The notes below the pieces were generated by a model. That model worked only from the letters and a program-made list of their open reading frames with translations, was not told where the DNA came from and searched no databases. From Candidatus Eremiobacterota bacterium (GTDB lineage: Bacteria > Vulcanimicrobiota > CADAWZ01 > Ess09-12): a DNA stretch of 56,919 nt. Position 1 is the stretch's first letter, and each line of letters starts with the position of its first letter. The position numbers and the translations under genes were made by a program. The DNA lies in the NCBI GenBank assembly GCA_031082125.1, contig JAVHLM010000026.1, positions 61,380 through 118,298 of the forward strand, read 5' to 3'. This document shows, one piece after another, positions 20,426-41,846 of the stretch.

Positions 20426-22114
20426 TTATTTCACGTGGAAGCGGAAAGAGCACTGGGCGTAGAACATGGGGCTCCTGTTCACATTGTTCCTCACGGGGTT
20501 GAGGGGAACGCCCCAGTCGAGGTTTACCCAGCTCATCTCGCCGAAGTTGTAGCGGAGCCCCGCGCCTGCTCCCGTGAGGCTTCTCGTGCCGGCCTCTCCC
20601 GGCACGGGGTTCTTGAGGGACACCATGCCCTGATCGCAGAAAAAGGCGACCTGGAGGTTGTTGTTTTTCCTTGAAAGGGGAACGCGAAACTCGGCGCTCA
20701 CCGAGTAGCCGCTGTCGCCAAGGTACTCGGTCTGCTGGTAGCCTCTCACGGAGTCGGGGCCTCCCAGGGGATACTGCTCCGCCACCACGAGGGGCTCGAA
20801 GGCATACTGCCCTGACCCGCGGAAGAGGAAGAAGCACGACCCCGCCTTCTGAACCCTCAGGAAGTCCAGGTTGAGCCTCGTGTAATTGTCGTCGGCGCCT
20901 GATCCGGCACGACTTGAAAGGGCATAATCGTTCTTCATACCCCCGAAAGCTTCGCCGAGCCCCTGGGTGCCCGACAGGAAGAGGTAGTTCTTTCCCTGGC
21001 CCGACATCCAGCTCGTGTCATAGAGGAGGGAGAGTGCCCGTATCTCGTCATGGCTCGTGGGATAGCTCTGGAAATAGAAATTCCGCATGCTCTTGCTGGT
21101 ATAGCCGTAGGTAATATTGGAGCTGCGGGCAGGAGAGCGCAGAATGGGCTGGCGCACCATGGCCCCATAGATCCTTGCGCTTCCAAGGATATTGTACACC
21201 GAGAGGTCCTGGCCCATGCGCACGTCAGAGTTGGCGTAATATACCGTGCCCTTGAGGCCCCTGTTGTTAAGGGGCAGGTTATACATGGCCTGTGCGAGGG
21301 GCGTCGTCTGGTTGGAGGGGAAGAGCTCGAGAAAGCGCGCCGAGAACTGGTTTCCCCACCCCAGGAGGTCCCCTGCGGTGAGATTGAAGCCGGCCCTGTT
21401 CTCGCCTGAGTAAATGTTGCCGAAGTTGTTGTACTCAAGGCCCATGTAAAGGGGTTTCTCATCCTCTACCTTGATGATGACGTCGGCAAGGTCCTCGCGC
21501 TCGCCGGGCTGGAGGAATGCCTTCGCCTTGAGGCCGTCAAACTCATTGAGAAGCATCACGGCGCGCTGGAGCGTGTTCCCCTTGAGAAGCTTGTCTTTCC
21601 TGATTGGCTCCATGAACCATTTTACAAAACGCTCGCTGTAGTGCTTGTTCCCCTCGACACGGATGTTCCCGACCTTTCCTTCAATGACTGATATCTTTAC
21701 ATTGCCTTCATTGATGTCCTGGATAGGCACGTAGGCTCTCACCGCTATATAGCCTTTGTCGTTGTAGTACTTCTGGATCTTGAGGGCCGCCCGCTTGAGC
21801 TCCTCGAGGGAGACCTCTTTCCCTTCCAGGGGGGCCACGAAGGGCGAGAGGACACTGCTTCCGTAGACGGTGTTTCCCTCGAGGCTCACTTTCCTCACGG
21901 GGAATTTTTTTTCAGGAATGGCTGCCGGAGCAGGTTTTTCGGCACCGGCCCCGCAGACTTCAAAAAAATGCTGTTTTACGGCATTTTCATCGAGAGGGGC
22001 GAGATCCATTGAAGGCGCGGCCCATGCGATCCCTTCAAGCATAAAGAGCAGGAGCACAATGGCAAGGAGCGCCCCGCATCTTCGTGCACCAACGAATTCT
22101 CTGCCGTTTTTCAT
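20426..22114 (-). CDS. TpsB outer-membrane transporter (FhaC/ShlB family)
   Basis: This Omp85-superfamily pore exports the TpsA protein encoded immediately downstream. It has 562 residues, typical for the family. A signal peptide with a long hydrophobic run ends near AWA-AP. A POTRA domain follows at about residues 68-145 (FPVRKVSLEGNTVYG and on), then a second POTRA-like stretch (GNIRVEGNKHYSERFV). A 16-strand ShlB-type barrel fills about 200-562. The conserved loop-6 motif VRGY sits around residue 457 in GGPDSVRGY. The chain ends in a barrel-like strand (CSFRFHVK). I chose ATG at 22112-22114; a TTG one codon upstream is possible. Ribosome-binding sequence before either is weak. Gene order is tpsB then tpsA, with 255 bp between them. 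Confidence 0.93.
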   Translation of the reverse strand: MKNGREFVGARRCGALLAIVLLLFMLEGIAWAAPSMDLAPLDENAVKQHFFEVCGAGAEKPAPAAIPEKKFPVRKVSLEGNTVYGSSVLSPFVAPLEGKEVSLEELKRAALKIQKYYNDKGYIAVRAYVPIQDINEGNVKISVIEGKVGNIRVEGNKHYSERFVKWFMEPIRKDKLLKGNTLQRAVMLLNEFDGLKAKAFLQPGEREDLADVIIKVEDEKPLYMGLEYNNFGNIYSGENRAGFNLTAGDLLGWGNQFSARFLELFPSNQTTPLAQAMYNLPLNNRGLKGTVYYANSDVRMGQDLSVYNILGSARIYGAMVRQPILRSPARSSNITYGYTSKSMRNFYFQSYPTSHDEIRALSLLYDTSWMSGQGKNYLFLSGTQGLGEAFGGMKNDYALSSRAGSGADDNYTRLNLDFLRVQKAGSCFFLFRGSGQYAFEPLVVAEQYPLGGPDSVRGYQQTEYLGDSGYSVSAEFRVPLSRKNNNLQVAFFCDQGMVSLKNPVPGEAGTRSLTGAGAGLRYNFGEMSWVNLDWGVPLNPVRNNVNRSPMFYAQCSFRFHVK

Positions 22115-22313
22115 CAAAAGTCCATTCTTCCAAAATTAAGGAATTATTATTATCGATTGCCAGAAAGATTCCTGCCGGCATGAGAGGAAATAATCCTCTT
22201 CAGATAGGAAATCAAGAGAAGCCGGGGATTTCTGCTTCGCCAGTCCCATGAAAAAGGAGAACCTCCCTTTGTCAAGAAATGCTTATGATCATAAAACACA
22301 AAGGAGATCCATT

Positions 22314-22808
22314 ATGAAAAACTCATGTATTCTTGTCATTTTCCTCATTGCCGCCTTCCTTCTCTGCAATGCCGGCAGTGCATTTTCCCAGGCAAAAAAG
22401 CCTTCACCTGCGCCGACGGAAACAATGGCCCCCGTCGTAAAGCTCACCCCGCCCGCTGCTGCTACGCCTGCCGCCCAGGCAAGGATGAAGACCATTTTTG
22501 ACTTTGAAAAGGAACTGGGCCTTTCGGCTGACCAGACAAAGAAGCTCAAGGACCAGGTGAACTCCTTCAACAAGGAGATTGCTTCCAACAATGACAAGCT
22601 CAAGGCCGCCAACAAGGAGCTCGGCGACCTCATCAACGCCAACGCGGCACTTGACAAGATCAAGGAGAAGCTCCAGCAGATAGGCGCCATAGAGCTCGAT
22701 ATCCGTCTTGCCAACGTGAAGACCTCCAAGGTGGTCAACGAGACCCTCACGAAGGATCAGCTCGCCAAGTGGCGGGAGATACAGAAGAGGGAGCGCCAGG
22801 TGAAATAG
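22314..22808 (+). CDS. Small periplasmic Spy/CpxP-like helical protein
   Basis: A 164-residue exported protein. The start is the ATG at 22314, 7 nt after AAGGAG, rather than an upstream in-frame codon, because the signal peptide (NSCILVIFLIAAFLLC...SAFSQA) begins there. The mature part has a Pro/Ala-rich linker followed by amphipathic helices rich in Lys, Glu, Asn and Leu. Two LTxxQ-like phrases, LSADQTKKL and LTKDQLAKW, resemble the repeats of Spy/CpxP periplasmic chaperone-like proteins. It stands alone, divergent from tpsB and about 200 bp ahead of a HAD phosphatase gene. Function is inferred only: envelope stress sensing or periplasmic holdase. Confidence 0.6.
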   Translation: MKNSCILVIFLIAAFLLCNAGSAFSQAKKPSPAPTETMAPVVKLTPPAAATPAAQARMKTIFDFEKELGLSADQTKKLKDQVNSFNKEIASNNDKLKAANKELGDLINANAALDKIKEKLQQIGAIELDIRLANVKTSKVVNETLTKDQLAKWREIQKRERQVK

Positions 22809-23010
22809 GTCCCGCGAATCTCTCCGCTGCAGCGCGTGTTCAAGGGATTTTCCAGGGGCCGGTGAGTGTTTTTTCTCCACCGGAAGGATCGGTTTTCCCT
22901 TTATATCTTCCGATGCAGGGGAAGAAGAATCTTGACGCCACTCCCCGGGAGGCTGTTCCTGAAAAGCGCAGCCTCGTGGTGGCCAGGGAAAAGTGAAGGA
23001 GGACCTGCCG

Positions 23011-24021
23011 ATGCCTGCCCAGAGAAAAAGCATACCCATAGCCCCGGTGCTTCTTGTCCTGATGACAGCCTTGGTTTTTGCCCGGTGGGGAGAAGCAAGG
23101 GAGCGCACTGAACCCCTTCCCTCATGGAACGGCGGCGCTGCAAAGGCGGCGGTAATCTCATTCGTGGATTCCGTCACCTCGGGGCCGGGAGCCCTTCCCC
23201 CGGAGGAGAGAATTGTCGTCACCGACAACGACGGAACCCTCATCGTGGAGAAGCCCCGCTATGTCCAGTATTCCTTCGTGCTGGACAGGGTGAGGGAGCT
23301 TTCCTGGAACAGCCCTCCCTGGAGAAACAGCGAGCCGTACCGGGCCATAATCGACGGGAACAGGGAGATTATCGACTCCCTTTCGGGGAAAGATGCCGTT
23401 GCCATTGATGACACAATCCATGAGGGGATTACCGGTGAAGCTTACAGGGCCGCCGCGGCGAGGTGGCTGGGCACCGCCCGGCACCCCCGCTTCAGCAGGC
23501 CTTACCCGGCCCTTGTCTATCAGCCCATGAGAGAGCTTCTGCAGTACCTTGTATCGCGGGGGTTCAAGGTCTATATCTGCTCGGCGGGGAGCACAGAGTT
23601 CATAAGAGCCCTTGCGCCGTCAGCCTATGGTATTCCCTTTGAGCGGATTATCGGCTCCGAGGTCGTCACCAGGTTCACCATGGATGATGGCCGGCCTCTC
23701 ATCACCAGGACTTCACAGCACATGCCCTTTGTGGAAAGGGAGTACAAGCCCCTGTATATTCAGCAGCGCATTGGAAGGGTTCCTGTCATGGCCATCGGGA
23801 ACTCAAACGGCGATGTGGAGATGTTCCAGTATGTCAAGGGAAGGAAAGGCCCTTCAATGGCATTACTGCTCCATCATGATGACGGGGATCGCGAATACTG
23901 CTATGACGGCGGAGCCGAAAAAGCCCTTGAGCTCGCCGGGAAAAGCGGCTGGACCACCGTGTCGATGAAGAAGGACTTCAGAAAGATATTCCCCTTCGAG
24001 AAGCCGTCAGAGAGAAAGTAA
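23011..24021 (+). CDS. Exported HAD-superfamily phosphatase
   Basis: A 336-residue phosphatase with an N-terminal hydrophobic signal or anchor (IAPVLLVLMTALVFA). ATG at 23011 follows AAGGAGG by 8 nt; an upstream GTG is less likely. HAD motif I is TDNDGTL, with Asp72 as nucleophile and Asp74 as general acid. Motif II is the Ser in ICSAGSTEF. Motif IV is GNSNGDVEMF, with Asp268 a metal ligand. The large insertion between motifs I and II makes an all-helical C1-type cap, as in phosphoserine phosphatase-like enzymes (family knowledge). The substrate is unknown. It converges on a Spy-like gene only 5 nt downstream and lies between two Spy-like genes. Confidence 0.82.
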   Translation: MPAQRKSIPIAPVLLVLMTALVFARWGEARERTEPLPSWNGGAAKAAVISFVDSVTSGPGALPPEERIVVTDNDGTLIVEKPRYVQYSFVLDRVRELSWNSPPWRNSEPYRAIIDGNREIIDSLSGKDAVAIDDTIHEGITGEAYRAAAARWLGTARHPRFSRPYPALVYQPMRELLQYLVSRGFKVYICSAGSTEFIRALAPSAYGIPFERIIGSEVVTRFTMDDGRPLITRTSQHMPFVEREYKPLYIQQRIGRVPVMAIGNSNGDVEMFQYVKGRKGPSMALLLHHDDGDREYCYDGGAEKALELAGKSGWTTVSMKKDFRKIFPFEKPSERK

Positions 24022-29845: not shown

Positions 29846-30184
29846 ATGAAAGAGAGAAAGGCAGGTCCCCTCAAGGACCCGAAGATAATAGACGGCATAG
29901 GGAAAAGAAAAGAAGGCGGCATCGATCTCTTTATCCTGGCGGCAGGGAAACTTGAGGCGGAGCACCAGTCCCTTCTGCTGGAGAAAGTGGAATGCTATCT
30001 CAAAGCCATCAACTCTGAAAAATTCAGGAACGACTTCAAGAACCCCTCGCCGGCAAGAACCCATATCGTGATAAAGTGCGCCATGGCTCCCGACGAGGTG
30101 ATGACAAGGTTCGTGAGGGCCATGAAAAAATACGTCCGTGATAACAATGCGCGCCTCAGACTGGAAGTCGTGGAAGTGCAATGA
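29846..30184 (+). CDS. Small cytosolic protein, resembles DUF6572, coupled to the kinase
   Basis: A 112-residue soluble alpha/beta protein with no signal peptide. ATG 29846 follows GGGAGGAG closely. The opening IIDGIGKRKEGGIDLFI, the middle KVECYLKAINSEKF and the final NNARLRLEVVEV match what I remember of the DUF6572 family; I could not search. The stop overlaps the kinase start as ATGA at 30181-30184. The two are thus translated in a coupled way, and a partner or regulator role for the kinase is a fair inference. Confidence 0.65.
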   Translation: MKERKAGPLKDPKIIDGIGKRKEGGIDLFILAAGKLEAEHQSLLLEKVECYLKAINSEKFRNDFKNPSPARTHIVIKCAMAPDEVMTRFVRAMKKYVRDNNARLRLEVVEVQ

Positions 30185-31695
30185 GCGGCCCCCTCCTTGA
30201 TAACAGGTACCAGGTGCTCTCAACGGTGAAAAAGGGAGGAATGGGCTGCATTTACAGAGCCTGCGATCAGCGTCTCGGCACTGTCGTTGCCCTCAAGAAG
30301 ATGCTCGCTCCCCTTACGGATGATGCCGAGCTTGCCTACGCGGAATCGCGGTTCAAGGAGGAAGCCCTTATTCTCTCCCGCCTTCACCATGGAGGGATCC
30401 CCAAGGTTTCGGACTTTTTCACCGCCCATGACGAAGACTCGGGAAAGCCCGCTCACTTTCTCGTAATGACTTTCGTCGAGGGGATGGATCTTGAATCGGT
30501 GATGAAGGAACGGTCATGGCGGGCCCTCCCGCCCGCTGACGGCCTGGATATCATGCGGCAGATGCTCCTGATACTTGAGTACCTTCACATGCAGACGCCC
30601 CCTATAATTTACAGGGATCTCAATGCACGGAACACCATGCTCTCGGCCGGCAAGGTCTTCATAGTGGATTTTGGCATTGCCCGCCTTTTTTCCCCCCAGG
30701 AGAAGGCTACCGTCATCGGCACGCCGGGATACGCGGCACCCGAGCAATACAGGGGTATGGCGGAGCCAAGAAGCGATATCTACTCTCTCGGCGTGCTCAT
30801 GCACTTCCTGCTCACCGGGAAAAACCCTGAGGAGAGCGAATTACCCCTCTTCACCTTTGAAATCCCTCACTCCCTTAATTCCGGAGTCCCCCCGGAGCTT
30901 TCGGACCTTATCATGGCGATGCTGGACCTGATCCCCGCGAAACGGCCCTCCTCTGCAAAGGAGATACTTCTTATGCTTGACGGGAAAGCCTCAGTCACCC
31001 CCGCGGCAGTCACCAATTCACTCAATGAAGGGAGTGGCGGCCTTTCTCCCTCACCCCATGGCTTTGCCAGGTCTGCGAAGCAGTATGGATCGATCTTCGA
31101 AGCCATAGAAAAGAATGATTTTGACGCGGTGAAATCCTTTGTTGACGGGGGCGCAGAGGTGAACTCCAGGGATGGGAGCGGCTGGCGCCCTCTTCATACG
31201 GCGGCGTTTCACGGCCACAGGGATATTGCCGGATATCTCACAGCCCATGGAGCCGACCTTGAGGCGCGCAGGGGAGATGGTTGGACAGCCCTCCACCTTG
31301 CGGCGCTCCATGGACATCTTGACCTCGTAGAGCTGCTGCTCAACAAGGAAGCAAAGCTGAATGCAGAGAAGGATGACGGGGGGACAGCCCTTCACATGGC
31401 TTCCCAGGGAGGGCACAGGGATGTGGCAGCCCTCCTGGTCAAACGGGGGGCCCAGGTGAACGCTAAAAATGCCGACGGCTCCACGCCTCTTCACCTTGCG
31501 GCCTATTATGACCACGCCGATGCGGCGGCTCTGCTCCTGGAAAAGGGCGCCGATGCCTCCATGAGGGACAGGTCAGGCCAGACTCCCCTGCAGGTTGCAA
31601 AGTCCTACGGCCACAAGGCCACGGCTGATGCGATAAAACGCCTCTCGGGCGGCGGATGGTGGAAACCTAAAAAGCAGGGTAACGGCGGGGACTGA
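30181..31695 (+). CDS. Ser/Thr protein kinase with C-terminal ankyrin repeats
   Basis: A 504-residue cytosolic protein. Kinase domain is about residues 9-270: Gly loop KKGGMGCIY (18-25), ATP Lys39 in VVALKK, catalytic Asp146 in YRDLNARN, DFG Asp163, and activation-segment end GYAAPEQYRG. A low-complexity linker follows. Then come about six ankyrin repeats (300-490) of the form DGGTALHMASQGGHRDVAALL. The usual HRDxK lysine is Asn148 here, whereas the second kinase in the window keeps Lys. The loop YRDLNARN resembles the tyrosine-kinase form (RDLAARN), so activity may be altered but cannot be ruled out. The start overlaps the upstream small gene. No transmembrane segment or PASTA domain is seen, so the ankyrin part probably picks the target. 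Confidence 0.92.
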   Translation: MSGPLLDNRYQVLSTVKKGGMGCIYRACDQRLGTVVALKKMLAPLTDDAELAYAESRFKEEALILSRLHHGGIPKVSDFFTAHDEDSGKPAHFLVMTFVEGMDLESVMKERSWRALPPADGLDIMRQMLLILEYLHMQTPPIIYRDLNARNTMLSAGKVFIVDFGIARLFSPQEKATVIGTPGYAAPEQYRGMAEPRSDIYSLGVLMHFLLTGKNPEESELPLFTFEIPHSLNSGVPPELSDLIMAMLDLIPAKRPSSAKEILLMLDGKASVTPAAVTNSLNEGSGGLSPSPHGFARSAKQYGSIFEAIEKNDFDAVKSFVDGGAEVNSRDGSGWRPLHTAAFHGHRDIAGYLTAHGADLEARRGDGWTALHLAALHGHLDLVELLLNKEAKLNAEKDDGGTALHMASQGGHRDVAALLVKRGAQVNAKNADGSTPLHLAAYYDHADAAALLLEKGADASMRDRSGQTPLQVAKSYGHKATADAIKRLSGGGWWKPKKQGNGGD

Positions 31696-32910: not shown

Positions 32911-32940
32911 TTGAAGAGGATCCTCTCTTTCGTATATAAT
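32911..32940 (+). promoter_or_regulatory. Promoter of the candidate selenoprotein gene
   Basis: TTGAAG (32911-32916) and a perfect TATAAT (32935-32940) are 18 nt apart. The ATG lies 36 nt further on, after AGGAGG at 32965-32970. With the strong terminator at 33446 this makes a one-gene transcript. Confidence 0.6.
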
Positions 32941-32976
32941 TAAGAGTGCTACACCGCTTGAGAAAGGAGGAGCACT

Positions 32977-33429
32977 ATGAGAAAAGGGGCTGCACTTATT
33001 CTTATCATCGCCTGTCTTCTGGGTCTGCCTTTCATGATCGCGTCGTGCGGCGGTTCGCGGGGGCCCATGTATGCCACGAGCCTCCCTGACCCTCCCACAA
33101 AGGACAGCACCCATGCCGTCAATGTTTATAACGATGCCTATACGCACAGGCAGCCGATCATGATGGTTTTCAGCCCGAGGAAATCGGGCTGAGGAGCACC
33201 GGCGCGGTTGGGGGCAATCGTGAAGGAGCTCGAGAAGGAATACGAGAAAAAGGTTGTCATCGTGACCCTGTACGGAGACAATCCGAGCCATGCCAAGGCA
33301 ATGAGATACCTCAAGATCAACGAGGTTCCCTCTTTCCGCTTCATCAACAAGCAGACAGAGATTGTATGCCAGATGGCGTCGCTCGACAAGAGCCGTATAA
33401 AGCAGGAGCTGGACAAGATAGCGAAATAG
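32977..33429 (+). CDS. Candidate selenoprotein: thioredoxin-like lipoprotein with in-frame TGA
   Basis: Read through one TGA (33190-33192), this is a 150-residue thioredoxin-fold lipoprotein. The signal ends in lipobox IASC, with Cys lipidation expected. PIMMVFSPRKSG leads into the TGA at codon 72, then GAPARLGAIVKELEKEY. The frame is unbroken on both sides. Alignment to thioredoxin (WCGPCKML) puts the TGA exactly on the first redox Cys; the second Cys is Pro. Later thioredoxin features are kept: a VVIVTLYGDN strand, cis-Pro in EVPSFRF, and a final helix. A hairpin starting 10 nt after the TGA fits a bacterial SECIS. The gene has its own promoter, good ribosome site and terminator. Alternative: a pseudogene by one nonsense change, or a sequencing error. 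Tools would call it as two ORFs or only a 71-residue stub. Confidence 0.65.
33203..33222 (+). promoter_or_regulatory. bSECIS-like hairpin after in-frame TGA
   Basis: CGCGGTTG (33203-33210) pairs with CAATCGTG (33215-33222) as an 8-bp stem with two G-U pairs, closing a GGGG loop. The loop begins 19 nt after the TGA (18 nt between). This fits the published general bSECIS layout: a short apical loop starting with G, about 16-37 nt from the UGA. The arms CGGTTG and CAATCG also recall those of the E. coli fdhF element, from memory. It lies within the coding frame, as bacterial SECIS elements do. Confidence 0.5.
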
Positions 33430-33445
33430 CGGGAATTTTATCATG

Positions 33446-33470
33446 GGCCCCGGGAACCCGGGGCCTTTTT
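33446..33470 (+). terminator. Intrinsic terminator after the thioredoxin-like gene
   Basis: A 9-bp GC-only stem (33446-33454 with 33457-33465) is followed at once by five T. It begins 16 nt after the stop codon and ends the transcript before the GAF gene. Confidence 0.9.
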
Positions 33471-39307: not shown

Positions 39308-39328
39308 GGCGGCCCGCAGGGTCCCATG

Positions 39329-39988
39329 CTATGAATCCTGCCAGTCCTTTGAGGTTATCTTCTCCACCCTGTCGATATACCAGTCGGGCTCCCATTTCCC
39401 CTGGACAGTGATCACCTCGTATTTCAGGTAATTCCCGCTTCCTTTCACAAAGTAGTACTCATTGACGAGCACGAGCACCCCTGTGGAGTCATGGCCTATG
39501 ATCTTGGTGGCATAGACGGGAATGCTGTCCATGTTCTCCGTGAAAGAGATGCCTTGAAAGCCTTTCCTGAAGGACTCGTATGGCTGTTTTTTCCGCCAGG
39601 CGGGGCTCAGATTCTGATAGGCCTGCTTGAAGTTCCCTTCCTGCAGGCGGCGGTAGTGCCCCCTCACAAGATCGTCGGCAATCTGTATGAGCCTCTCAAA
39701 TTCACCGGTAAAAGTGATTGAGTCAAGCAAGAGATCGCCTGATTCGCCGTGGAACTGGAAAATGCAGCGCTCCCCGTAGCGGAACTGTCCGGTGAGGCCC
39801 GACATTTTTGTCGCGGAGTTGTTGTACCTCATTTTGTAGAGCTTTTTCCCCCCGTAGATATGGAGGGTGCCGCCGCCGGTACCGCCCTCGGCATAATAGA
39901 GCACTCCTTTTTGCTGGGCCGCGAAGAGGGGAGCTCCTGTCATTATTAAAAGCAGGGCCGATATCAGGGTAACTGCCGCCTTTTTCAT
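39329..39988 (-). CDS. Exported protein with NTF2-like C-terminal part
   Basis: A 219-residue protein with a clear signal peptide (KKAAVTLISALLLIMTGAPLFAA). Residues 25-90 are beta-rich and start with GVLYYAEGGTGGG. From about 105 on (LVRGHYRRLQEGNFKQAYQNLSP ... WYIDRVEKI) it has the helix-then-sheet pattern of NTF2/DUF4878-like domains, a weak call from pattern only. Function unknown; likely periplasmic or envelope. Confidence 0.6.
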   Translation of the reverse strand: MKKAAVTLISALLLIMTGAPLFAAQQKGVLYYAEGGTGGGTLHIYGGKKLYKMRYNNSATKMSGLTGQFRYGERCIFQFHGESGDLLLDSITFTGEFERLIQIADDLVRGHYRRLQEGNFKQAYQNLSPAWRKKQPYESFRKGFQGISFTENMDSIPVYATKIIGHDSTGVLVLVNEYYFVKGSGNYLKYEVITVQGKWEPDWYIDRVEKITSKDWQDS

Positions 39989-40091
39989 CTGAATGTTTCC
40001 TCCGTGCCGGGAAATTTATTCTCATGCCCTTTTTCACCTTTTTCTGCCCTTCCTCCTCTCTGGCAGGGAAGGAGCACACATTTCTTCCGTG

Positions 40092-40121
40092 GTGAAGGAA
40101 CACGGTATATCGGAGCATAAT
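40092..40121 (+). promoter_or_regulatory. Possible promoter for the DUF2330-like gene
   Basis: GTGAAG (40092-40097) and CATAAT (40116-40121), 18 nt apart, sit about 55 nt before the ATG at 40176. Both boxes deviate from consensus. Confidence 0.35.
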
Positions 40122-40175
40122 AGATAAAGAGGTTCACCCTTCGGAATTCAGCTTCAAAGGAGGTCGCAGGAGCCC

Positions 40176-41846
40176 ATGATAAGGACCGCGGTGCTTGCCT
40201 GTATCATGGTGCTGTGCTTTTTGGCTTCCTCGCCATCGGTCCTCGCTGACGGGTGCTATTACCCCGAGAAGGCCTATGCATCTCTTCCCGCGATCCCCTC
40301 GCAGAGAGCCATGGTGATATATCAGAAAGGCATTGAGCGGCTTGTCGTGGAATCAGCATTCAACGGGGAAGGGAAAAGCTTTGGATGGATCGTGCCGGTA
40401 CCCGGGAAGCCTCTCGAAGTGCGCGAAGTGTCTCCCGGCTTCCTGAAGACCCTCTCGATATGCGCCCAGCCCGAAATAGTCAATGATCTCACCAGGCAGA
40501 AGAGTTTCCCATTCCTCCTCGCCGTCCTTATCACTCTCTGGCTTGTCTTGATGGGGCTCCTCCGTCCCTCCCTCCCCGGGGCCATTCTGAGCCTGGTTGG
40601 CTTCGTGATAATCTTTGCCGTTATCGGCCCGAACTTCCTGAGGGGGCGCGGCGGCGGCCTGGCTCCTGCCTCAGTGACCATAGAAGGCGTCGCCGTCGAG
40701 CAGGAGGCCATCGTGGGGGGCTACCGGGTCTCTGTGCTTGATGCACAGAGCCTTGAGGCGCTGAACAGGTGGCTGAAGACCAATGGCTTCACAGAAGTGC
40801 CGCAGGAAGGAGCGGCCATGACCGAAGACTATATCAGGCAGCAGTGGCGTTTCGTTGCCGCCGTGCTCACCAGGGACCAGAACGGCCTCTCTGTCCCCCA
40901 TCCGCTCGAAATCAGCTTTGCTGCCGCATCTCCTGTCTATCCCATGAGGATGACAGCCCTGGGGAGATCGCCCGTATATCTCGAGCTTTTTGTCATCGCT
41001 GATCGAAGGGCCCAGGTAACTCCCCTCACCATGGAGCTCTGCGATGTCCTGAAGGAGAGGCCGGCCAATGAGACTCGCGATTCAAAGTGGGGCATATTCC
41101 AGGAAAAGCCTGAGGGAAAATTATACCGTATGGAAGCGACCTACCAGGAGGTCGGTCATCCCCAGGCTTCCTCGTACCTGTGGGATGGGGCGGTGCTGAC
41201 GCGGTGCGCCGGGAAGCTCGCCCCGAAAGAGATGAATCGGGACCTCTCCATTTCCTTTGAGCCTTATAAACCCTTTCAGAAAAAGTATTACAGCGTCCGG
41301 GGGGCTAAAGATACGGCCATGGTGCTCACTCTCTGGATCTGGTGTATCGCGGCCCCCCTGGTACTGTTCATTTTCTACGGGAAGATATGCAATGCGGGGA
41401 TTCCCATCCTGCACTTCGCAAAAGTGCTTGCCCCGCTCCTCGCGCTTTGCCTTGTCATCCCGCCCCTGGGGCCCCTTGTAATTCCTACTATCAAGACGGG
41501 GGACCTGGGAGGTGGTATCAGTCTTTATGGCTATTACAGGGATTTGAGCTATGCGGTAGAATTCGTGGCAGGCAGCAACAAGAAGGATCTCGAGATAATG
41601 CCGGAAGCTGCGATAGGGAAATGGTTTCTCCCGCGCCTCGGCGAGGCGTATAAAGATATGAACCGTGAAAAGAAGCCCCTTGTGAATATCATTACCGGCG
41701 GCGATGTCCGTGAAGAGGATTCCCCTGGAAACTTCACGATTTTCACCAGTGACCGTGGAGTGTTCTTCAGGCTGTACTCTCCTTCAGCAATTCCCTTTGA
41801 TATTCCGATCAGGGAGGTGAAAGGAGCAAATTCCCGTCGTGAGTGA
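40176..41846 (+). CDS. DUF2330-like exported membrane protein
   Basis: A 556-residue protein. Residues 1-24 are a signal peptide, followed by DGCYYPEKAYASLPAIPSQR and SFGWIVPVP, which I recall as the start of DUF2330. Hydrophobic stretches at about 109-150 and 376-430 look like transmembrane helices, so the central and final parts sit in the membrane, with a large soluble domain (150-370) between. It follows AGGAG closely. The next gene starts downstream in the same direction with an unknown product. Function of DUF2330 is not known. Confidence 0.6.
   Translation: MIRTAVLACIMVLCFLASSPSVLADGCYYPEKAYASLPAIPSQRAMVIYQKGIERLVVESAFNGEGKSFGWIVPVPGKPLEVREVSPGFLKTLSICAQPEIVNDLTRQKSFPFLLAVLITLWLVLMGLLRPSLPGAILSLVGFVIIFAVIGPNFLRGRGGGLAPASVTIEGVAVEQEAIVGGYRVSVLDAQSLEALNRWLKTNGFTEVPQEGAAMTEDYIRQQWRFVAAVLTRDQNGLSVPHPLEISFAAASPVYPMRMTALGRSPVYLELFVIADRRAQVTPLTMELCDVLKERPANETRDSKWGIFQEKPEGKLYRMEATYQEVGHPQASSYLWDGAVLTRCAGKLAPKEMNRDLSISFEPYKPFQKKYYSVRGAKDTAMVLTLWIWCIAAPLVLFIFYGKICNAGIPILHFAKVLAPLLALCLVIPPLGPLVIPTIKTGDLGGGISLYGYYRDLSYAVEFVAGSNKKDLEIMPEAAIGKWFLPRLGEAYKDMNREKKPLVNIITGGDVREEDSPGNFTIFTSDRGVFFRLYSPSAIPFDIPIREVKGANSRRE

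Follow-up and report, generated by a model that had tools for sequence, protein, structure and literature searches.

We examined a reading frame on the forward strand of a 56,919-nucleotide stretch of a Candidatus Eremiobacterota genome, referred to here as the window, which an initial annotation made from the letters alone had proposed as a selenoprotein gene. Translation bore out the frame described there, 150 codons that are continuous except for a single in-frame TGA at codon 72. Standard annotation would end the gene at that TGA. The N terminus of the predicted protein is a hydrophobic stretch followed by a lipobox (LPFMIAS before C24), which we recognized by eye on the translation and which agrees with the lipoprotein signal claimed earlier. 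The gene also has the signals of a transcription unit of its own, with a promoter-like site that is a consensus match only, a ribosome-binding site (AAAGGAGG), and a strong terminator (Table 1).

Table 1. Features of the candidate selenoprotein gene, in window coordinates
Feature	Position	Strand	Basis
Promoter-like site, TTGAAG-18-TATAAT	32911..32940	+	Consensus scan; consensus match only
Ribosome-binding site AAAGGAGG, just 5' of ATG	32963..32970	+	Sequence
Candidate selenoprotein gene, 150-residue thioredoxin-like lipoprotein, TGA very probably read as Sec	32977..33429	+	Frame translation, homology, coding signal
Signal peptide, codons 1 to 23, lipobox I-A-S before Cys24 (33046-33048)	32977..33045	+	Translation; lipobox by eye
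TGA for putative Sec72, first residue of UGAP, on the first Cys of CGPC	33190..33192	+	Alignments
CCG, Pro75, at the place of the second (resolving) Cys	33199..33201	+	Sequence, alignments
bSECIS-type hairpin with an 8-bp stem (33203-33210 paired to 33215-33222) and a GGGG loop (33211-33214) that starts 18 nt after the TGA	33203..33222	+	
Pro118, cis-Pro of the thioredoxin fold	33328..33330	+	Alignments
Cys131, the sole other mature-domain Cys besides lipidated Cys24	33367..33369	+	Alignment
Intrinsic terminator, 9 pairs, then a T run	33445..33466	+	Scan

Codon usage downstream of the TGA was coding-like. It scored 0.244, where true frames have a median of 0.268 and 1.6% of wrong frames reach 0.244. 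The signal was weaker upstream, over the signal peptide and linker, where the score was 0.108 and 13% of wrong frames reached that value. The neighboring genes encode a kinase with ankyrin repeats, a YbjQ-type protein, a GAF protein, and a member of the alpha-amylase family; they are unrelated to the gene studied here, so gene context says nothing about its function. The kinase gene (30181-31695, + strand) fuses a protein kinase domain to the ankyrin repeats. Elsewhere in the window, a single repetitive open frame of 6754 codons on the minus strand (2-20263) runs off the window start and has an N terminus that resembles, by eye, those of filamentous-hemagglutinin-type exported proteins. An 858-base repeat unit is present in three copies within positions 15-2030.

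Thioredoxin fold and the UGAP site

Pfam and PDB sequence searches returned thioredoxin matches that were weak but consistent. The Thioredoxin family (PF00085) scored 17.9 bits, below its curated cutoff of 23.5, and TIGR01068 scored 16.4 bits, below its cutoff of 96.8. In a phmmer alignment to solved thioredoxins, the first Cys of CGPC is matched by residue 72 and the second by P75, the same register that the initial annotation had reached, and the PDB sequence search aligned P118 with the cis-Pro. An AlphaFold2 model, built from two sequences with the loci from the phylum genome searches left out, had moderate confidence (pLDDT 66) and the thioredoxin order of elements. The top Foldseek matches of this model were thioredoxins (best E value, 8e-7; TM score by query length, about 0.57 to 0.67). 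Alignment and moderate-confidence model together thus gave the strand-helix order, an active site at the N terminus of a helix, and the cis-Pro, in keeping with the strands and cis-Pro noted earlier.

The Pro75 codon has no base in common with TGC, so this proline does not stem from a single read error. The earlier statement that the protein lacks a resolving Cys stands for the motif and does not extend to the whole mature domain, which still has C131 besides the lipidated C24. By the phmmer alignment, C131 lies near residue 88 of Escherichia coli thioredoxin. This strand is remote from the active site, and C131 would not be an obvious partner for Sec72.

Selenocysteine machinery and the downstream hairpin

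The host genome assembly (7.4 Mb, 98% complete, 69 contigs) contains tRNA-Sec (70 bits, anticodon TCA, G000:C6:172326-172413), with selB close to it (TIGR00475, 383 bits), selA (557 bits), and a selD gene that itself carries TGA in frame at its customary Sec site, as does fdhA (context ARTUHAP). The loci for selB near tRNA-Sec, fdhA, and selD are L013:5361-7259, L054, and L015. With selA, selB, selC, and selD all found, the bacterial Sec system is complete and the host cell is able to insert Sec. A changed genetic code with TGA reassigned was ruled out, since TGA is a normal stop that terminates five of eight neighboring reading frames. At least 15 of the phylum's genomes have a thioredoxin gene immediately next to selA and in the same orientation (for example, G069:C476:186-500 and 551-1897, G067:C72:38999-39277 and 39328-40674, and G035:C59:23167-23454 and 21743-23089), which suggests a thioredoxin-selA operon.

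Published bSECIS elements have a loop of 3 to 9 nt with G in the first two positions, a stem of 4 to 16 bp, a distance of 16 to 37 nt from the TGA, and a minimum free energy (MFE) of at most -7.5 (PMC13188914). The hairpin downstream of codon 72 falls within every one of these ranges, with a GGGG loop, 8 bp, a distance of 18 nt, and -8.8 kcal/mol, and this confirms the layout that had been read from the sequence by the initial annotation. The 48 nt 3' of the TGA fold with an MFE of -21.2 kcal/mol (z = -4.5 versus dinucleotide shuffles). Taken alone, the hairpin is suggestive, not unique or decisive: a hairpin that obeys the rules and is at least as good follows 2.6% of ordinary coding positions in the window. 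An Rfam search near the gene gave no meaningful match.

Demanding that the hairpin lie inside the overall MFE structure was too strict, and this rule missed fdhA and selD of the same genome. We therefore used a local-hairpin rule, with ordinary codons from eight frames as the null and Cys homologues as a control. A rule-meeting hairpin of -7.5 kcal/mol or lower followed 15 of 22 distinct Sec sites, which include related genes and are not fully independent, compared with 3 of 25 Cys homologues and 4.6% of ordinary codons; hairpin energies differed between Sec sites and Cys homologues in a rank test (p about 1e-5). The distance of 18 nt in the window gene compares with 17 and 18 nt for the loops after the selD and fdhA TGAs of the same genome, versus the 25 to 35 nt usual among related thioredoxin-like Sec genes. 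Four family members have a common hairpin at 26 to 27 nt, in which two pairs are changed on both sides.

TGA-bearing thioredoxin-fold genes in the phylum

A plain protein search gave matches that were only 21 to 24% identical to the window protein, with no close orthologue. A search with the protein, over 58 and later 149 genomes of the phylum, turned up a tandem pair of genes in a genome from another family; each has TGA at the Sec72 column (UGAC and UGGC). Profiles built from this pair brought in more. Homologues had either Cys or TGA at exactly the Sec72 column, the comparison that the initial annotation had proposed. The 149 genomes, together with an actinobacterial contig, yielded 24 thioredoxin-fold genes with an in-frame TGA (22 distinct sequence contexts, with L080 and L085 each repeating that of another gene), and in all 24 the TGA fell exactly at the first Cys of CxxC. 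Two of them come from the host genome and one from the actinobacterial contig; the remaining 21 are spread over ten further genomes of the phylum. The fourth motif position is Cys in 22 of them, Sec in one (UAPU, L084), and Pro in the window gene only, which bears out the earlier remark that a UGAP site without a resolving Cys would be unusual. Two further loci, L045 and L049, were dropped because their TGA lies upstream of the start.

The host genome's second gene of this kind has the site HPTUKNC (L065:1333-1884, + strand; G000:C29 near 94268-94618). The actinobacterial gene (L017) encodes a rhodanese-thioredoxin lipoprotein with UPAC and was the only find when genome contigs, viral contigs, and plasmids were searched with the protein or a three-sequence alignment. 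The UAPU gene (minus strand, G028:C526:9121-9381) encodes a thioredoxin-like lipoprotein and has two TGAs in frame, separated by nine bases. Both share a single strong hairpin, at distances of 18 and 27 nt. An alignment of eight sequences left only the Sec column and the cis-Pro invariant, and the window protein has a two-residue insertion before Sec. The window gene is, on the evidence of these alignments, one of a phylum-wide set of predicted exported thioredoxin-like selenoproteins.

The genes L020, L047, L048, L075-L083, and L085-L090, all exported or lipoprotein thioredoxin-like with TGA at the first Cys, come from one class of the phylum, and several have a near-identical hairpin (CTCAGTTTGAG type) 34 to 35 nt after the TGA. 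This seems to be a selenoprotein expansion.

Interpretation and relation to known selenoproteins

Three other accounts of the TGA were weighed. That it is a sequencing or assembly error in what is really a Cys or Trp codon is the least probable, even in an assembly of 69 contigs, because the error would have had to strike the very column where 23 other genes, almost all of them in separate assemblies, have TGA, and to do so beside a bSECIS-type hairpin in a genome that possesses Sec machinery. Hardly more credible is a true stop, which would leave a 71-residue lipoprotein and a remnant frame, a pseudogene that arose when a Cys codon mutated to a stop. In this genome TGA does serve as a normal stop, and TGC needs one base change to become TGA, but TGA occupies the same column in homologues from 10 further genomes within the phylum and from one outside it, the Sec machinery is present, the hairpin is in place, and the coding signal continues.

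A decaying selenoprotein gene, in which Sec is or was inserted and the second Cys and the function have been lost, is unlikely but deserves more weight than either of these, and it is the chief reservation about a UGAP site known from one member. The window gene is the sole family member with Pro for the second Cys, its identity to relatives is low (24%), it has the insertion before Sec, and it had no orthologue in four genomes of the same order. Against decay, the frame is otherwise free of stops and frameshifts; promoter, ribosome site, lipobox, hairpin, cis-Pro, and terminator are all intact, as is the coding signal 3' of the TGA; and the three base changes between TGC and CCG go beyond one point mutation.

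Selenocysteine is thus very probably inserted at codon 72, as first proposed, a reading that the sel genes, the homologues with TGA in the Sec column, and the hairpin of bSECIS layout all support. The best explanation of the locus, to which we give a probability of about 0.82, is a monocistronic gene for an exported lipoprotein of thioredoxin fold, with Sec72 inserted through SelB and the hairpin and serving a one-selenol redox enzyme. In this scheme, the hairpin that follows codon 72 would direct SelB and tRNA-Sec to read the TGA there as selenocysteine, and Sec72 would be the catalytic residue at the N terminus of the active-site helix. With Pro in place of the usual second Cys, no internal Se-S bond can close within the motif. 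Export, membrane anchoring, and the lack of a second Cys or Sec in the motif point to a one-selenol redox enzyme at the outward-facing side of the membrane as the most likely mode. The selenol would attack an oxidized substrate (a disulfide, a mixed disulfide, or a peroxide), and the Se-S or Se-O intermediate would be reset by an external thiol, for example, of another extracytoplasmic thioredoxin-like protein. We infer Sec incorporation, membrane anchoring, substrate, and resetting partner, and the mono-selenol mechanism along with them. Beside a thioredoxin-like gene, the host genome encodes a membrane conduit of the CcdA/DsbD type that could deliver electrons to the extracytoplasmic side; a tie to the window protein is a guess. 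In another genome (G006), a CcdA-like membrane protein, recognized by eye, is encoded immediately after the nearest Cys homologue.

Published lists hold UxxC, CxxU, UxxU, UxxS, UxxT, and UxxV sites in thioredoxin-fold families (PMC13188914, PMC9312934, PMC2398784); a thioredoxin-type UxxP is absent from these three lists, which may be incomplete. Literature searches, mainly of open-access papers, turned up no UxxP thioredoxin selenoprotein. Thioredoxin-like UxxC selenoproteins are already known, and the UGAP member adds an unlisted site type. The window protein is likely a membrane-anchored thioredoxin-fold enzyme with a single Sec and no resolving Cys in its UGAP motif, a new motif class relative to those lists, in a phylum rich in exported thioredoxin-like selenoproteins, UAPU included. 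If confirmed, it would be a natural thioredoxin-type enzyme with Sec and without a resolving Cys, and would show what selenium allows without a second thiol.

Among known systems, CoA-disulfide reductase (UGxP) and HesB-like proteins (UxGP) (PMC13188914) share only similar letters around Sec, and their folds are unrelated. DsbA 3 with UxxV (PMC2398784) and GPX-like proteins with UxxT (PMC13188914) are alike in Sec, a thioredoxin-type fold, and a non-Cys fourth residue, presumably with one-selenol chemistry; they belong to other families of the fold, and neither is listed as a thioredoxin with UxxP. The UxxC selenoproteins of the Thioredoxin family itself (PF00085, PMC13188914 Table 1; Trx-like 1, PMC2398784) have the same fold, Sec at the first Cys, the cis-Pro, and a downstream bacterial SECIS, whereas the window protein has Pro instead of Cys in fourth place, is a predicted exported lipoprotein, and scores below the Pfam cutoff. 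Also close are the exported relatives in the phylum (L011, two genes; L020; L047; L048; L065; L075-L090), which share its fold and Sec column and, like it, in many cases have a signal peptide or lipobox (by eye) and in most a bSECIS-type hairpin. They differ in keeping the second Cys, or in the UAPU protein a second Sec, and in a hairpin usually 25 to 35 nt from the TGA instead of 18. Within a single fold and a single phylum, the Cys-Cys, Sec-Cys, Sec-Sec, and Sec-Pro sites would form a natural series for asking why exported redox proteins use Sec instead of Cys.
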